Source: Bacillota bacterium | Lineage (GTDB): Bacteria; Bacillota; Sulfobacillia; Sulfobacillales; Sulfobacillaceae | DNA length: 34,828 bases | Assembly: GCA_023512105.1 (NCBI GenBank) | Contig: JAIMAE010000016.1 | Span: 1 to 34,828 of the forward strand | Direction: 5' to 3' | Part shown: piece after piece, positions 4,726 through 34,828 of the stretch | Numbering within the stretch: position 1 is the first letter of the stretch | How the letters are laid out: the number at the start of each line of letters is the position of its first letter | Made by a program: the position numbers and the translations under genes | The notes under the pieces: generated by a model | Database searches by the model: none | Told to the model about the DNA's origin: nothing | The model's input: only the letters and a program-made list of their open reading frames with translations

Positions 4726-6051
4726 TCACAATCGTTGCACGTGGGCGCGTCCCTGGGTCCAACGGGGCATTCCCAGCCGAACCCATCCCCATGCCAACGC
4801 CAGCAACAAGGCCAGAAGGCCGGCAGGGGCAAGGAGGCCGGGACCGCCTAACAACGCTCCCACTCCCAGCGCCAGGTAGATCACACCTCCGGCGGCAATC
4901 CCATACCGGCCACCCAGGGCCCGAAACGGGCGCGGACGGTTAGGCTCCCGCCGCCGCAGCGACAGCACCAACACCGCCGTCAAGGCGTACATCAACGACT
5001 CCACCCCGGCCCCCACGTTAATCAGCAGCTGATAATGCCGAGATGCCACCACCACCCCCGCCAGCGCCAGGCTCAGCGCCGCCAACCCCAAAAGCGCCCG
5101 CGCCGGCACCAATCGGCGGTTGAGTCGAGCCCACCCGGGCGGCAAGGTGCGCTCCCGAGCCAGGGCGTAAACAAAGCGCGAGGCCGTGGACAGGCCGCCG
5201 TTGAAGGTGGTGCCGGCGGTGGTCAGGGTCAGGATCATCATCCACCAGTAGCCGATTTCTCCCATCGCGGCTCGACCGACCACCAACTGAGGTGTGAAAC
5301 TATCGGCCAAGCCTCGTGCCCCGGGATAGAGGGCCTCGAGCGCCGCGGTAAACAGGGCGTAAGCGATGGCCACCAACCCGAGAGCAATCAGCATTCCCTT
5401 GGGAATCGACCGGGCGTCGCGGAACTCCTCCGCCAACGGCGTGACCCATTCGAACCCCACATAGATGAACACGCCCACCGCTACCGCCTGCCAAAAGCCG
5501 CCGGAACCGGCGGCCCGGGGAAGCGAAGGGGGCAGGGGATGATGCCACAACACCGCCAACGAAAAGGCCATCAGCGTTGCCAGCAGAACCAGGGCGTTCA
5601 GATCCTGGATGGCGCCAGAGACGCGAATCCCCCGAAGGTTGGCGGCGCTGATCGCAGCTACCACCAAGGCCACCAACAAAAGACCCGGCACATGCGGCAA
5701 GGCCTGTCCAAACGCTTGGGCCAAGACAAAGGCGTCAGCCGCCATCACCAGCAGGACCGTGCTGGCGTAGACCAACGAAGCCACCCGGGCCAACTGGTCG
5801 TTCCATCCCCGTCCAATCCAGACGCGAATGGCCGCCGCCGTCGGGTACAACCCGTTAAGTTCGGCAAAATTGGTCGCCGCCAACACAATCAACACGCCGG
5901 CCACCAAAATCGCCACCCAGGCCCAATGACCACTGGTCAGTTGAGCTACCTCCACCGCGGCAAGAAAATTGATCGCCGCGGAAGCCAAGCCGGCACTGGT
6001 GGAAACCGCCGTGCGCAAGGGAAGCACACGTCTAAAACCGCCGATGCTCAC
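4726..6051 (-). CDS. APC-superfamily amino-acid/polyamine permease
   Basis: The protein is hydrophobic, with about twelve membrane-spanning segments. The first is SAGLASAAINFLAAVEVAQL, and the family glycine-rich helix and GFEWVTPLAEEFRDARSIPKG resemble the conserved 'G(F/Y)E...eE..nP.r.iP.g' region of APC permeases. It would import or exchange an amino acid or related amine at the cytoplasmic membrane; the substrate cannot be told. The start is uncertain. The frame is open to a TTG at 6195, but the conserved part begins near a GTG at 6051, which I use. It lies 16 bases before the molybdenum hydroxylase gene on the same strand, so the two are probably one transcript. Confidence 0.8.
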   Translation of the reverse strand: MSIGGFRRVLPLRTAVSTSAGLASAAINFLAAVEVAQLTSGHWAWVAILVAGVLIVLAATNFAELNGLYPTAAAIRVWIGRGWNDQLARVASLVYASTVLLVMAADAFVLAQAFGQALPHVPGLLLVALVVAAISAANLRGIRVSGAIQDLNALVLLATLMAFSLAVLWHHPLPPSLPRAAGSGGFWQAVAVGVFIYVGFEWVTPLAEEFRDARSIPKGMLIALGLVAIAYALFTAALEALYPGARGLADSFTPQLVVGRAAMGEIGYWWMMILTLTTAGTTFNGGLSTASRFVYALARERTLPPGWARLNRRLVPARALLGLAALSLALAGVVVASRHYQLLINVGAGVESLMYALTAVLVLSLRRREPNRPRPFRALGGRYGIAAGGVIYLALGVGALLGGPGLLAPAGLLALLLALAWGWVRLGMPRWTQGRAHVQRL

Positions 6052-6620: not shown

Positions 6621-7553
6621 CTATCGGCTCCCCTTGGCGTTTCGGGTGACATCGAGCAGAAGCCATTCGTACCGCAACGGCAATTCAGACACCCGCTGCG
6701 GCCATTGGCGGTCTTCTGCCGTGATCCCCAATGCCGCAACCACTGCAGCCTCCAAAATGTTGGTACCAAAACTGCGCCCGTCCAGGCGCGGGGTGGTGGT
6801 CACCACCCACGCCACCCCGCGCGCCGTCATCGCCTCAATATCCGCGGCGGTGGTGGTGTTGGTGATGATTCCCTTCCCGGACAAATCCGCCGGCCAGTAG
6901 CGGCGAATCAAGTGAAAATCGCCGGCGATGATCGCCGCTTCCGCGAAGTAGCGGGCATACCGGGGGTCGGGCTCCCGCCGCTGCTCGTCCCCGATCGGAT
7001 ACAGCTGAGAGAACGGCAGTTGGGTGAACTGGGGCAACAGCCGTCGCCCGATCGCCACCAACTCCTCCCGGGTGCGGATCGGGTAGTCGATGTGGGCGGC
7101 AAAGATCAGGTCTCCCGCCACCACCGGGTAGCCTTCTTGGTAAAAGGTCTCGGCCATCCCAAAACGGTCGAGAGCAGAGACCATCAACACCGGTTGGGAG
7201 GGATGGATGCGCCCTTTGGCCTGAAGGTCGAGGATGACCCGGCGCTCCCAGGTGCTTTTAATCCCGCTGCCGTCCACCACCGGGGTGGCGGTGGCCGCCT
7301 CGGCCAAGTAGGCTCCATCCCGAATCTCGTAGCGGGTCCCGTCTAGCCACAGCCAGCGGTCGATGCCTCCCAAGCCGATGGCGTCTACCTTGCCGTCCAG
7401 CTCGGCGATCCATTGGCGAGCTCGCTCCAGGTCACCGTCGCTGCCGCGCCGCTCCACCAAAATCCGGTGCCCCAGCAACTCCAACTCCGCCGCCTGATCC
7501 CGATGGGAACTGCCCAGGCTGACCCCGACGATTCGCTTCGCTCGACTCGACAC
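6621..7553 (-). CDS. Conserved protein of unknown function (310 residues), next to lysS
   Basis: I do not recognise a catalytic domain with confidence. The N-terminus (KRIVGVSLGSSHRD) and segments such as AIGLGGIDRWL, PVVDGSGIKSTWERR, PVLMVSALDRFGMAE and GIITNTTTAADIEAM, with the C-terminal SFGTNILEAAVVAALG, suggest an alternating alpha/beta fold. From memory, proteins like this are sometimes labelled 'quinate 5-dehydrogenase' in Firmicutes and Deinococcus genomes; I cannot verify that and see no clear Rossmann GxGxxG, so I do not adopt it. It starts with GTG two bases after lysS and is followed two bases later by the SCP2 gene, so it is translated as part of that operon. Codon use matches the neighbours, which argues for a resident gene. 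Confidence 0.75.
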   Translation of the reverse strand: MSSRAKRIVGVSLGSSHRDQAAELELLGHRILVERRGSDGDLERARQWIAELDGKVDAIGLGGIDRWLWLDGTRYEIRDGAYLAEAATATPVVDGSGIKSTWERRVILDLQAKGRIHPSQPVLMVSALDRFGMAETFYQEGYPVVAGDLIFAAHIDYPIRTREELVAIGRRLLPQFTQLPFSQLYPIGDEQRREPDPRYARYFAEAAIIAGDFHLIRRYWPADLSGKGIITNTTTAADIEAMTARGVAWVVTTTPRLDGRSFGTNILEAAVVAALGITAEDRQWPQRVSELPLRYEWLLLDVTRNAKGSR

Positions 7554-7555
7554 GG

Positions 7556-9106
7556 CTATTCCCCATCGTGCCCGCTCGGCAACGGACGCAGGGTCGGGAA
7601 CAAAATCACGTCGCGAATGGATGGACTGTCGGTGAGAAGCATCACCAACCGGTCGATACCCAGGCCCAGCCCGCCGGTGGGCGGCATGGCGTGCTCCAAG
7701 GCAACCAGGAAGTCTTCATCAAACGGATGCGCCTCCTCGTTGCCGGCCAGTCGCTGATGTTGCTGCTCGATAAACCGCTGCCGCTGGTCCAGCGGATCGT
7801 TGAGCTCTGAGAACGCGTTGGCCAGCTCCCGCCCCGCCACGAACAGTTCAAAACGTTCGCTGAGGTGGGGGCGGTTTGGGTCTCGTTTGGCCAAGGGAGA
7901 GATCTGCACCGGGTGATGCCACAAAAAGGTGGGTTGAATCAGCTCCGGTTCAATCAACACCGAGACGATCTTGTCCATGACCTGGTGGTGGTAAAAGCCC
8001 CGATCCACCGTGATGCCCAGCCGGGCCGCAAACCGGTGGGCGTCGGCGGTGGTCTCGATCTCCTGCCAATGCACGCCCGTCTTCTCGTACAGCCGCTGCT
8101 CCAAGTCCACGCGTTGGTAGGGCGGGGTAAAATCGAGGCGTTGGCCCTGGTACTCGATGACCAGGGAGCCTTTGACCTCCCACAACAGCGCCTGCAACAT
8201 GTCCTCGATCAGGCGCATCATCGCCTCGTAATCGACGTACGCCTGGTACAACTCCAACATGGTGAACTCGGGGTTGTGTCGCGTGGAAATCCCTTCGTTG
8301 CGGAAGACCCGCCCAATCTCGAAGACCTTCTCGAACCCGCCCACGATCAGGCGTTTGAGGTGGAGCTCGAGCGCCACTCGCAGGAACAACTCCATGTCCA
8401 ACGCATTGTGGTGCGTCCGGAAGGGACGCGCTTCGGTGCCGCCGGCCAACGGGAGCAATACCGGCGTCTCCACCTCCATGAACCCTTTGGCCGCCAAAAA
8501 GTCGCGGATGAACCGGATGGTCTGGGACCGCACGGCGAAGGTCTCGCGCACTTCGGGGTTGACCAGCAGGTCCAAGTACCGTTGACGATATCGGAGGTCG
8601 ACGTCGCGCAGCCCATGCCACTTGTCGGGCAGCTCGCGAAGACTTTTGGAAAGAAGCTCGAAGGAGTCCGCCTCCACCGTGACCTCTCCGCGCCGGGTCT
8701 TGAAGACGGTGCCGGATACCCCCAGAATGTCGCCAAGGTCTACCAACTCGAAGATCTGCCACAGGCGCTCGCCGAGCTGGTCGGCTCGAAAATGGCATTG
8801 AATGCGTCCTTGTTGGTCGTGAAGGTCCACAAACGCAGCCTGCCCATGGTGGCGGATGGCCATGACCCGCCCCGCCACCTGAACCGTGCGCCCCTCCAGG
8901 TGCTCGAAGGCCTCCTGAATTTCTCGGCTGTGGTGACTGACCGGGTAGGTGGTCGGGCGATAAGGGTCGACCCCTAGTTCGCGCAGGCGGCGCAACTTGC
9001 CCAGGCGCACCTCCCGTGGATCGTAGCCGTTCGAGCTTTCACTGGGGTTTTCCACCGATGCCGTCCTCCCGTCTGTGCCAGATCCCTGTCCGTCCGGTGT
9101 ATCCAT
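7556..9106 (-). CDS. lysS: Lysyl-tRNA synthetase, class II
   Basis: A 516-residue cytoplasmic enzyme that charges tRNA-Lys with lysine. The N-terminal OB-fold anticodon-binding domain (about residues 60-170; VQVAGRVMAIRHHGQAAFVDL) precedes the class II catalytic core. Motif 1 is FMEVETPVLLPLAGGTEARPF, motif 2 is FRNEGISTRHNPEFTMLE, and motif 3 is GLGIDRLVMLLTDSPSIRD; all three are complete. Length is normal apart from a poorly conserved N-terminal extension of about 25 residues before YDPREVRLGKL. It starts two bases after greA stops, an arrangement seen in many Firmicutes (dusB, greA, lysS). Confidence 0.96.
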   Translation of the reverse strand: MDTPDGQGSGTDGRTASVENPSESSNGYDPREVRLGKLRRLRELGVDPYRPTTYPVSHHSREIQEAFEHLEGRTVQVAGRVMAIRHHGQAAFVDLHDQQGRIQCHFRADQLGERLWQIFELVDLGDILGVSGTVFKTRRGEVTVEADSFELLSKSLRELPDKWHGLRDVDLRYRQRYLDLLVNPEVRETFAVRSQTIRFIRDFLAAKGFMEVETPVLLPLAGGTEARPFRTHHNALDMELFLRVALELHLKRLIVGGFEKVFEIGRVFRNEGISTRHNPEFTMLELYQAYVDYEAMMRLIEDMLQALLWEVKGSLVIEYQGQRLDFTPPYQRVDLEQRLYEKTGVHWQEIETTADAHRFAARLGITVDRGFYHHQVMDKIVSVLIEPELIQPTFLWHHPVQISPLAKRDPNRPHLSERFELFVAGRELANAFSELNDPLDQRQRFIEQQHQRLAGNEEAHPFDEDFLVALEHAMPPTGGLGLGIDRLVMLLTDSPSIRDVILFPTLRPLPSGHDGE

Positions 9107-30397: not shown

Positions 30398-30458
30398 CCC
30401 ACTCCCTCCGCCAGGACGATATGCCGGACAAGGCAAGGCCATGCCTGGGGTCTGGCGG

Positions 30459-30743
30459 TCACGGGGCCAGCCAGGTCGCGGTAATCAGGACGCCCCCATC
30501 CTCGACATCGGCCCAGAATCTGGCCACGAGCTCCTCCTTCTCGTCGCAGACGGTACCAAACAGGCGGTTTTGCTCCACGTCATTCACCTGAATGACCACC
30601 TCCGGGCCAAATCGGTCCTCGGCCGCCGCCTGGACCTCCCGGAAGGCCCGCTCTCACAAGGTTCAGCAAAACTTGTACCGCCGCCCCCGAATCTCAGCCC
30701 AAACGTTGCCCCAGGTGGCTCCGCAGACGGCACACGCCTCCAT
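30459..30743 (-). CDS. Small zinc-ribbon-like protein with two in-frame TGA codons (possible selenoprotein or UGA-Cys protein)
   Basis: ATG at 30743 lies nine bases after AGGAGG, an excellent start, 30 bases after the preceding gene. Codons 1-26 read MEACAVCGATWG ... RGRRYKFC. Codon 27 (30665-30663) and codon 30 (30656-30654) are TGA, and codons 31-94 continue in frame with sensible composition (ERAFREVQAAAEDRFGPE ... VLITATWLAP), ending at TGA 30461-30459. The first half has a C-x2-C pair (4,7) and then F-C-TGA-x-x-TGA, where a zinc ribbon of the Ta0938-like kind would have C-C-x-x-C. Both TGAs thus occupy cysteine positions. Selenocysteine, UGA read as cysteine, or a pseudogene are the options; the second metal or redox site would be complete only if both are decoded. 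Confidence 0.6.
30614..30649 (-). promoter_or_regulatory. Candidate SECIS-like hairpins after the two TGA codons
   Basis: Hairpin 1: GGGCCT/AGGTCC with loop TCCGGG (30632-30649), loop 19 bases after the first TGA. Hairpin 2: GGTCC/GGACC with an inner GGC/GCC and loop GGCG (30614-30636), loop 26 bases after the second TGA and 35 after the first. Both loops lie in the spacing used by bacterial SECIS elements and contain G, but GC-rich coding DNA forms such stems by chance. Confidence 0.3.
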
Positions 30744-30773
30744 TTGCCGCTCCCTCCTCCCGGCTGAGACTCC

Positions 30774-31679
30774 CTAGGCCAAGCCGACTCCGCTTTCTTC
30801 CTCCGCCGCCTCCGCCATCTCGTCAAACATCCGCCGCACGTGGCCGATCGCCGTCTTGAGGGTCTCTAACACCTCGTCCATCTCCGCGTGACCGTAGCGG
30901 GCCAAGATCGCCGCCGCCTGGTTGCCGTGTTCTACGTCGGCCACCTCGGTGGCACGGATAAAGCCCAGCGCCTCTTCGGGCAATCCCAAGGCCCGCCAGG
31001 ATGCCCGTTCGAACCCGGTCCCTTGGGCAAGGCCGGCCCGGCGCGGCAATTCCCGGTCCCCCAACATCTCAATCCCGTTGACCGCCGCAAAACCTAAGAC
31101 CCAGTTGGGTTGTCGTGCCATCTCCTCCCAATAGCGGAAGGCCGCCTCGGCCGCCGGCAGGGGACGATCTCGCTCCAGCTCTTCCCGCTCCATCCCCAGA
31201 GCGCGCCCCAAGCGCTGTAAGAGCCCGTAGTGGTGGGTCCCCTCGCTGGGATCAGCTACCACCTCGGCCATCAAGTTCTCCACTTCAAAGGCGATTACGT
31301 CAAACTGGGGACAGTTGGAAATCACCGCCCCCACCCAGCGCGGGAACCGGCGGGAGAAGCCAAGCCAGCCGCGCACAAAGGCCCGCGCTTGGGCCGGCGT
31401 AGGCCCTTGGGCAAAGGCTTGGATCAAACGGGGCGGATCGCGAAAATATTGGTCCACCACCAGCTGCTCGATGCGCTCCACGTCCCGAGCCTGCGCCTCT
31501 CTGAGGCTCTCCCACTCCTCCAGGCGAGCGGCCAGCACCGAGGGCGACAGGGCTTGACGGCTGAGATTGCGGTTTAGCCACATGACGTGGGCGCCGTCGC
31601 TGGCAGCCGCCAAACTGGCGAAGTGTTGGGCCAACTCGTTCCAGTCGCGAGCAGGAACATCACAAACCGGGCAACGCAT
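30774..31679 (-). CDS. Haem-oxygenase-like (TenA/PqqC/CADD-type) protein with N-terminal zinc-finger motif
   Basis: The protein has 301 residues. The first 20 or so form a C2H2/CPxC finger (MRCPVCDVPARDWNELAQHF). The rest is all-alpha and matches the haem-oxygenase-like fold: FEVENLMAEVV followed by GTHHYGLLQRLGRALGM, then NGIEMLGD and TEVADVEHGNQAAAIL, providing glutamate and histidine ligands that in this superfamily hold a di-iron centre in oxidases such as CADD. It may be a di-iron oxidase or a metal-free PqqC-like enzyme. The ATG at 31679 is chosen because GGAGGAGAGG lies immediately before it. It precedes the TGA-containing gene by 30 bases. Confidence 0.7.
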   Translation of the reverse strand: MRCPVCDVPARDWNELAQHFASLAAASDGAHVMWLNRNLSRQALSPSVLAARLEEWESLREAQARDVERIEQLVVDQYFRDPPRLIQAFAQGPTPAQARAFVRGWLGFSRRFPRWVGAVISNCPQFDVIAFEVENLMAEVVADPSEGTHHYGLLQRLGRALGMEREELERDRPLPAAEAAFRYWEEMARQPNWVLGFAAVNGIEMLGDRELPRRAGLAQGTGFERASWRALGLPEEALGFIRATEVADVEHGNQAAAILARYGHAEMDEVLETLKTAIGHVRRMFDEMAEAAEEESGVGLA

Positions 31680-31733
31680 ACTCCTCTCCTCCCTCTTCAT
31701 GGGCCTTCCGGCGTCCTTTGCCTCCTCGTCCTC

Positions 31734-34192: not shown

Positions 34193-34828
34193 CTATTCGT
34201 CCTCCCGGCCGGCGTCGGCCTGCCTCCATAACGCCACTTCCGGGAGGTGCTCCGCCCGGTCTCGCGCTTCCTCCCCCACCTCGGCCGGGCAGATGATGCG
34301 GTAGGTACAAGTACGGCACGGCTCTGGACGGCCGTGGGGGATCGGCCAGAATTTCCCTTCGGCGATCCACTGGCCCATGGTCTGGACGATCGGCTCCGGG
34401 TCGGGCCATTCGGCCTCAGGCCCCACGGCGTACGAGGCAAACCGCCGCCGGGCGTTTAACCCCATCACGCGAACCGCCACCGGCTCCCCCCGGTCGCGGA
34501 TGGCCAGTCGGTACAACGCCATCTGCAAATTGTCCGGGCCGACTTTAAGCGGATGGGAGAAGGCCCCAGTCTTAAAGTCGATCACCTCCAGGCTACCGTC
34601 GGCCAAACGGTCGACGCGGTCTAGCCGACCCTCCAGCGCCACCCCGCCCACGGCAAAGCGAAGTGTCTGTTCCCGGAGCACGCTTTGCCGCCCTGCGAGC
34701 TCTTTGCGGCTCCACCACAAGGCGTCGGCCACCTGCGAGGCCAAAGACTCTACTTCCCCCTCGACCATCACCGAAAGCGCGTCTGGAGGCGGCGGGCTGT
34801 CCGCCATCGCCTTTTCAATCGCGGTCAG
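34193..34828 (-). CDS. AddB/RecB-type PD-(D/E)xK nuclease, C-terminal part, 5' end beyond the window
   Basis: The frame is open to the window edge (LTAIEKAMADS...), so this is only the C-terminal third or less. GRLDRVDRL, then LEVIDFKTG give the PD-(D/E)xK acidic residues and lysine; QMALYRLAIR is the QxxxY motif. PCRTCTYRIICP is a C-x2-C-x5-C pattern that in AddB and Cas4 holds part of a 4Fe-4S cluster, the fourth cysteine lying outside the window. Its coupling to the helicase gene 11 bases downstream supports an AddAB-like DNA end-processing complex in which this protein supplies the nuclease. Confidence 0.82.
   Translation of the reverse strand: MTAIEKAMADSPPPPDALSVMVEGEVESLASQVADALWWSRKELAGRQSVLREQTLRFAVGGVALEGRLDRVDRLADGSLEVIDFKTGAFSHPLKVGPDNLQMALYRLAIRDRGEPVAVRVMGLNARRRFASYAVGPEAEWPDPEPIVQTMGQWIAEGKFWPIPHGRPEPCRTCTYRIICPAEVGEEARDRAEHLPEVALWRQADAGREDE

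Follow-up and report, generated by a model that had tools for sequence, protein, structure and literature searches.

Our analyses have identified, in a bacterium of the phylum Bacillota, a small gene that is seemingly broken by two internal stop codons but is most likely intact, and that we interpret, with a probability of roughly 80%, as a double selenoprotein gene with selenocysteine (Sec) at codons 27 and 30. This interpretation follows from the presence of both in-frame TGA codons at invariant cysteine (Cys) positions, the homology to relatives on both sides of these codons, and the tRNA-Sec, SelB and SelD encoded by the same genome. An earlier note, made from the sequence alone, had proposed such a recoding, and the Cys residues of the relatives, the match to the Ta0938 family and the presence of tRNA-Sec, selB and a Sec-type selD support it. 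The gene is located in the window, by which we mean the whole stretch of 34,828 nucleotides that was analysed, and its features are summarized in Table 1.

Table 1. Positions of the small gene, its signals and its partner in the window.
Feature	Position	Strand	Remarks
Ta0938-family (PF11494) selenoprotein gene (proposed)	30459..30743	-	94 residues, proposed Sec at 27 and 30
TGA codon 27	30663..30665	-	Proposed Sec; Cys in all relatives
TGA codon 30	30654..30656	-	Proposed Sec; Cys in all relatives
TGA codon 95	30459..30461	-	Genuine terminator; frame end coincides with relatives' end
Ribosome-binding site GGGAGGAGGG	30752..30761	-	From sequence
Candidate bacterial SECIS hairpin, GGUCC-A-GGC[GGCG]GCC-GA-GGACC	30614..30636	-	Suggestive only
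Partner gene: N-terminal C2H2-type zinc finger (PF16293) and iron-containing redox enzyme/PqqC-TenA-like domain (PF14518, PF03070)	30774..31700	-	
Stretch holding the gene pair	30443..31733	.	1291 bp, versus 19 bp at this site in sister species G484

Gene structure and membership in the Ta0938 family

The earlier note had placed the gene at the correct coordinates, and the strong ribosome site, two in-frame TGA codons, 64 clean codons and third TGA that it described are all confirmed in the sequence. It is the minus strand that carries the gene, and the plus-strand reading of the same interval was discarded as unrelated and meaningless. Read on the minus strand as MEACAVCGATWGNVWAEIRGRRYKFC-TGA-TL-TGA-ERAF...ATWLAP-TGA, the gene consists of an ATG, a C-x2-C motif, the segment F-C-TGA-T-L-TGA, 64 sense codons and the third TGA, and the Shine-Dalgarno-like GGGAGGAGGG is located 8 nt upstream of its ATG. 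Within the frame of 94 codons no frameshift, TAA or TAG is present, and the GC3 values upstream (0.77) and downstream (0.83) of the two TGA codons are similar to those of the neighbouring genes (0.74-0.80). Automatic annotation would stop at codon 26 or label the gene broken.

Family searches were carried out with the protein translated with Cys at both TGA codons. The Pfam family Ta0938 (PF11494) is matched over residues 2-86, a span that includes both TGA positions (E=5e-13, 49.7 bits, gathering cut-off 27 bits), and the NMR structure of Ta0938 from Thermoplasma acidophilum (PDB 2fqh) is also matched, with a family profile E of 4e-32; the Ta0938-like small metal-binding protein that the earlier note had suspected is borne out by these two matches. 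The FCCDIC of Ta0938 aligns with F-C-TGA-T-L-TGA of the small gene. The small protein shares with this family a full-length match and the arrangement C-x2-C...F-C-C-x2-C, and members of the family are likewise encoded directly after a PqqC/haem-oxygenase-like gene, whereas the small gene is distinguished by TGA in place of Cys 27 and Cys 30, by its bacterial host and by its divergence (24-39% identity).

When 84,980 species genomes were scanned with the aligned small protein and Ta0938 as query, 25 relatives were recovered, which by record title are nearly all archaeal (viz. Thermoplasmata, Bathyarchaeota, Sulfolobales, and others), and all 26 aligned members match PF11494. Cys is present at both 27 and 30 in every one of the 25 relatives, in agreement with the earlier proposal that the TGA codons replace expected cysteines. 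In the alignment of 26 rows, C4, C7, C26, C27, and C30 never vary when the small gene's TGA codons are read as Cys; the small protein itself has Cys at 4, 7, and 26, and TGA, i.e. Sec if decoded, at 27 and 30. One of the two search patterns included FCC..C, and part of the relative set was thus selected for this motif; at least six relatives (L052, L064, L071, L072, L075, and L076) match the other pattern, CA[VL]CGATW, and also carry FCC..C, and since this pattern lies outside the Cys residues of FCC..C, these six were not selected for having them. Past the TGA codons the gene retains the invariant G63 as well as the C-terminus, and its open frame stops at the same point as in the relatives, which indicates that the third TGA is a true terminator. 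No second TGA-bearing homologue was found among the 25 relatives, the TGA form being known from a single genome; a protein-only search of genome, viral, and plasmid collections yielded no close relatives, and a search with the Ta0938 alignment found no relatives in viral contigs.

The two TGA codons may alternatively be explained by the decay of a horizontally acquired, unneeded gene that has suffered two nonsense mutations, and the restriction of the TGA form to one genome, its foreignness to the lineage and its divergence would all fit a pseudogene. However, each of the two hits is a TGA at an invariant Cys codon; under a model of single-base nonsense hits on the small gene, the chance that two hits both land on codons 27 and 30 is about 0.0015, and the chance that both land anywhere among the five conserved Cys codons is about 0.02. 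In addition, past the TGA codons the small gene preserves its frame, GC3, G63, and C-terminus, it has no frameshift, TAA or TAG, its ribosome site is good and its partner is intact, and we consider decay an improbable explanation. A sequencing or assembly error, with TGC or TGT as the true codons, would fit the metagenome-type assembly with its many contigs and the single copy of the gene; against it, such base errors are rare in an otherwise clean contig, and two independent errors that both convert an invariant Cys codon to TGA and alter nothing else among 94 codons would be required, so that this explanation has very little probability.

Decoding of UGA in the host genome

The host genome (404 contigs, 96.8% complete) encodes a standard tRNA-Sec with a UCA anticodon (73.5 bits), a SelB of 636 residues, and a SelD whose active site, SG-TGA-GCK (SG-U-GCK), has TGA at the known Sec position. 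A tRNA-Sec is common across the class. The gene selA was not found in the contigs of the host genome, and is present in 29 of the 34 genomes of the family, including that of the sister species G484. When the selA region of the sister is aligned on the host genome, the ends of contigs C16 (5548 bp) and C34 (5247 bp) fall at sister positions 6032 and 9209, respectively; because selA (sister 7263-8678) lies between these two ends, its absence is most simply an assembly gap, and we have rejected this absence as an argument against Sec. Of the Sec machinery to which the earlier note had pointed, tRNA-Sec, selB and a Sec-type selD are present in the genome itself, and selA, which probably falls in the gap, is present in the sister species.

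Several observations on this machinery were also made in other genomes. A SelD with one TGA (SGUGCK) is found in 30/30 family genomes having a match (L097, L101:3222-4253, and L136-L164). A strong selA match with one internal TAA, which represents a pseudogene or a base error, is located at G511:C33:64640-65902, and two full-scoring tRNA-Sec matches per genome are found in G509 (C73 and C12) and G482 (C70 and C175), due to duplication, mixed bins or assembly copies.

The host genome also carries a Sec-shaped tRNA-Cys (C290:8079-8170; L020, L002) with anticodon GCA, U73, an encoded CCA, a long variable arm and a 6-bp D stem, and such a tRNA is also present in several family genomes (relatives L077-L085). 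It resembles the selC* tRNA-Cys reportedly described by Mukai et al. Certain Sec-shaped tRNA-Cys elsewhere carry a UCA anticodon (PMC7609411), and with such tRNAs, U73 included, present in the host and in family members, an altered or Sec-shaped tRNA-Cys could read UGA as Cys and give rise to an ordinary four- or five-Cys protein, an alternative that had been raised in the earlier note. However, the host copy and all nine further copies called tRNA-Cys by ARAGORN have GCA, no UGA-reading (UCA) tRNA-Cys was found among the Sec-shaped copies examined, the UCA tRNA of the host is its standard tRNA-Sec, and SelD has TGA at its known Sec position; this alternative is thus not supported, and we attach only a slight chance to it.

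A candidate SECIS hairpin is present downstream of both TGA codons (Table 1). The distance to its apical loop (GGCG) is 26 nt from UGA30 and 35 nt from UGA27, and the one hairpin fits for both UGAs the published bSECIS loop distance of 16-37 nt (PMC13188914), as do 77% of random codon positions in the GC-rich window; the general bSECIS rules are non-discriminating and were rejected as a SECIS test. Its energy of -18.6 kcal/mol falls in about the best tenth of random positions. The SelD genes of the family mostly have a GGUCC-GGA-GGACC hairpin after the UGA, with a paired stem change to GCUCC/GGAGC in L148 and L151, and the small gene shares the 5-bp GGUCC/GGACC stem around a longer top. In 129 kb of the host's DNA this stem pair is present 8 times, both genes included, so that about 0.002 is expected per 35-nt stretch; the likeness was noticed after the fact, and the SelD stem also codes for the conserved GPEDL. 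The likeness is suggestive, and the GGUCC/GGACC hairpin may be the SECIS of the small gene. The Sec-type SelD of the host and its family would then have in common with the small gene TGA as Sec, SelB/tRNA-Sec and the downstream hairpin, and differs from it in being an unrelated enzyme with one Sec and a hairpin nearer to the UGA with a shorter loop.

The provision of a single hairpin for both UGAs, at 26 and 35 nt, and the two rounds of SelB that tandem UGAs require would also fit a gene in which only one UGA is decoded as Sec, or both are read inefficiently, with most of the product ending at residue 26 in a selenium-dependent switch. The relatives need both Cys, and a 26-residue product would miss most of the fold of the AlphaFold2 model described below, both of which make partial decoding a very doubtful alternative. 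Reading of two Sec codons spaced by only 9 nt would be inefficient, and this, together with the occurrence in one genome only and the 404-contig assembly, is counted against the double-Sec reading.

Operon partner and origin of the gene pair

The partner gene is located 30 bp upstream of the small gene, and its homologue (PqqC/haem-oxygenase-2-like) is found directly upstream in 25/25 relatives, indicating that the two genes form a conserved operon. Among the 398 phylum genomes and 154 class genomes searched, the host genome alone has PF11494. The gene neighbourhood is collinear in the sister species G484, where the two genes that flank the pair are 19 bp apart, versus 1291 bp here. The collinear flanks around this empty site indicate that the contig belongs to the host genome, and the empty site implies either a gain of the pair here or its loss from the sister. 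As the operon is distributed among archaea, its gain by horizontal transfer is the likelier event. We call the host Bacillota-like on the basis of a T-box leader and a glmS ribozyme in its contigs, both of which are typical of that phylum. No donor of the operon is given by the tree, in which the branch of the window's partner is too long (3.7 changes per site), and we have refrained from naming one; the long branch of the gene pair may reflect faster evolution or partial decay, both being compatible with the rates.

Two further records are of relevance to the contigs and relatives considered here. The relative L068 (JAJPJY010000158.1), titled 'bacterium Centralia_MAG_577', has an archaeal-type operon whose partner groups with an archaeal one, and is probably a mislabelled archaeon. 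The last 77 bases of the window (34752-34828) are identical to the first 77 bases of contig C21, as for an assembly-graph overlap, and C21 probably continues the window contig.

Predicted structure, related selenoproteins and evolutionary significance

An AlphaFold2 model of the small protein (Cys at both sites, 26 sequences) has a pLDDT of 92 and a fold that runs without a break through codons 27 and 30 as far as the C-terminus, consisting of an N-terminal Cys-rich hairpin, a helix from residues 27-28, and then a four-stranded sheet. A Foldseek/VIA search of this model against PDB gave no significant match, and 2fqh was absent from its results though the sequence profile finds it; the best structural match (Z 7.4), to a designed cystatin-fold protein, may represent merely a common arrangement. 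The TRASH/YHS metal-binding domains (PF24273 and PF04945) have similar Cys spacing around residues 4-36, with a weak profile match in which the small protein scores 25.8 bits against PF24273, under the 27-bit cut-off. A YHS selenoprotein (NF041384, GxU) is already catalogued, and no paper was found linking TRASH domains with selenocysteine. Judging from how the motifs are spaced and from the weak match to TRASH, a zinc-ribbon-like site may have C4-x2-C7 and residues 27-30 (or 26 and 30) as its ligand pairs. Compared with Cys, Sec is the stronger nucleophile and also binds soft metals more strongly. Several Sec proteins have been assigned to metal handling (PMC13188914), and the small protein could be a metal- or redox-active helper of its diiron-family partner, which is the least secure step of our interpretation.

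Double-Sec metal-binding selenoproteins have been catalogued, viz. UxxU (NF041115) and MbdU (NF045648, CU) (PMC13188914, Table 1), and in these, as is proposed here, two Sec are close together in a small metal-binding protein. The small protein matches no NCBIfam model, NF041115 and NF045648 included (E up to 1), and PF11494 is not in the 2026 list of 119 prokaryotic selenoprotein families/subfamilies (PMC13188914, Table 1). The PF11494 double-Sec protein would be an uncatalogued selenoprotein, of which the UxxU or double-Sec metal-binding kind and the decoding system were already known.

The course of events that we infer, comprising Sec insertion at both codons, the function of the SECIS, the direction of transfer and the metal or redox role, would be as follows. 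A two-gene operon known from archaea probably moved horizontally into a Sec-decoding Bacillota-like bacterium, where the two invariant Cys codons (27 and 30) of the small protein would have turned into TGA. SelB carrying Sec-tRNA(Sec, UCA) and kept in place by a hairpin ~20-40 nt downstream would insert Sec at both UGAs, and the UGA at codon 95, which has no hairpin signal, would lead to termination. The product would fold as Ta0938, with C4-x2-C7 and C26-U27-x2-U30 as the ligand pairs of a metal site that Sec may make a stronger soft-metal ligand and/or redox-active, and would probably serve the diiron-family partner as a metal carrier or reductant. Taken as a whole, the capture of an archaeal-type operon, the conversion of two metal-ligand Cys to Sec with one SECIS for both, and a selenolate-rich site beside a diiron-family enzyme form a tentative account, to which we give somewhat less than an even chance.

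If the double-Sec reading is true, two adjacent Sec in a probable metal site would represent an arrangement that is seldom seen. The case suggests that, once in a Sec-decoding host, a Cys protein gained by lateral transfer can be converted to a Sec form at two positions, and would provide a direct case for the study of Cys-to-Sec conversion and of Sec as a metal ligand.
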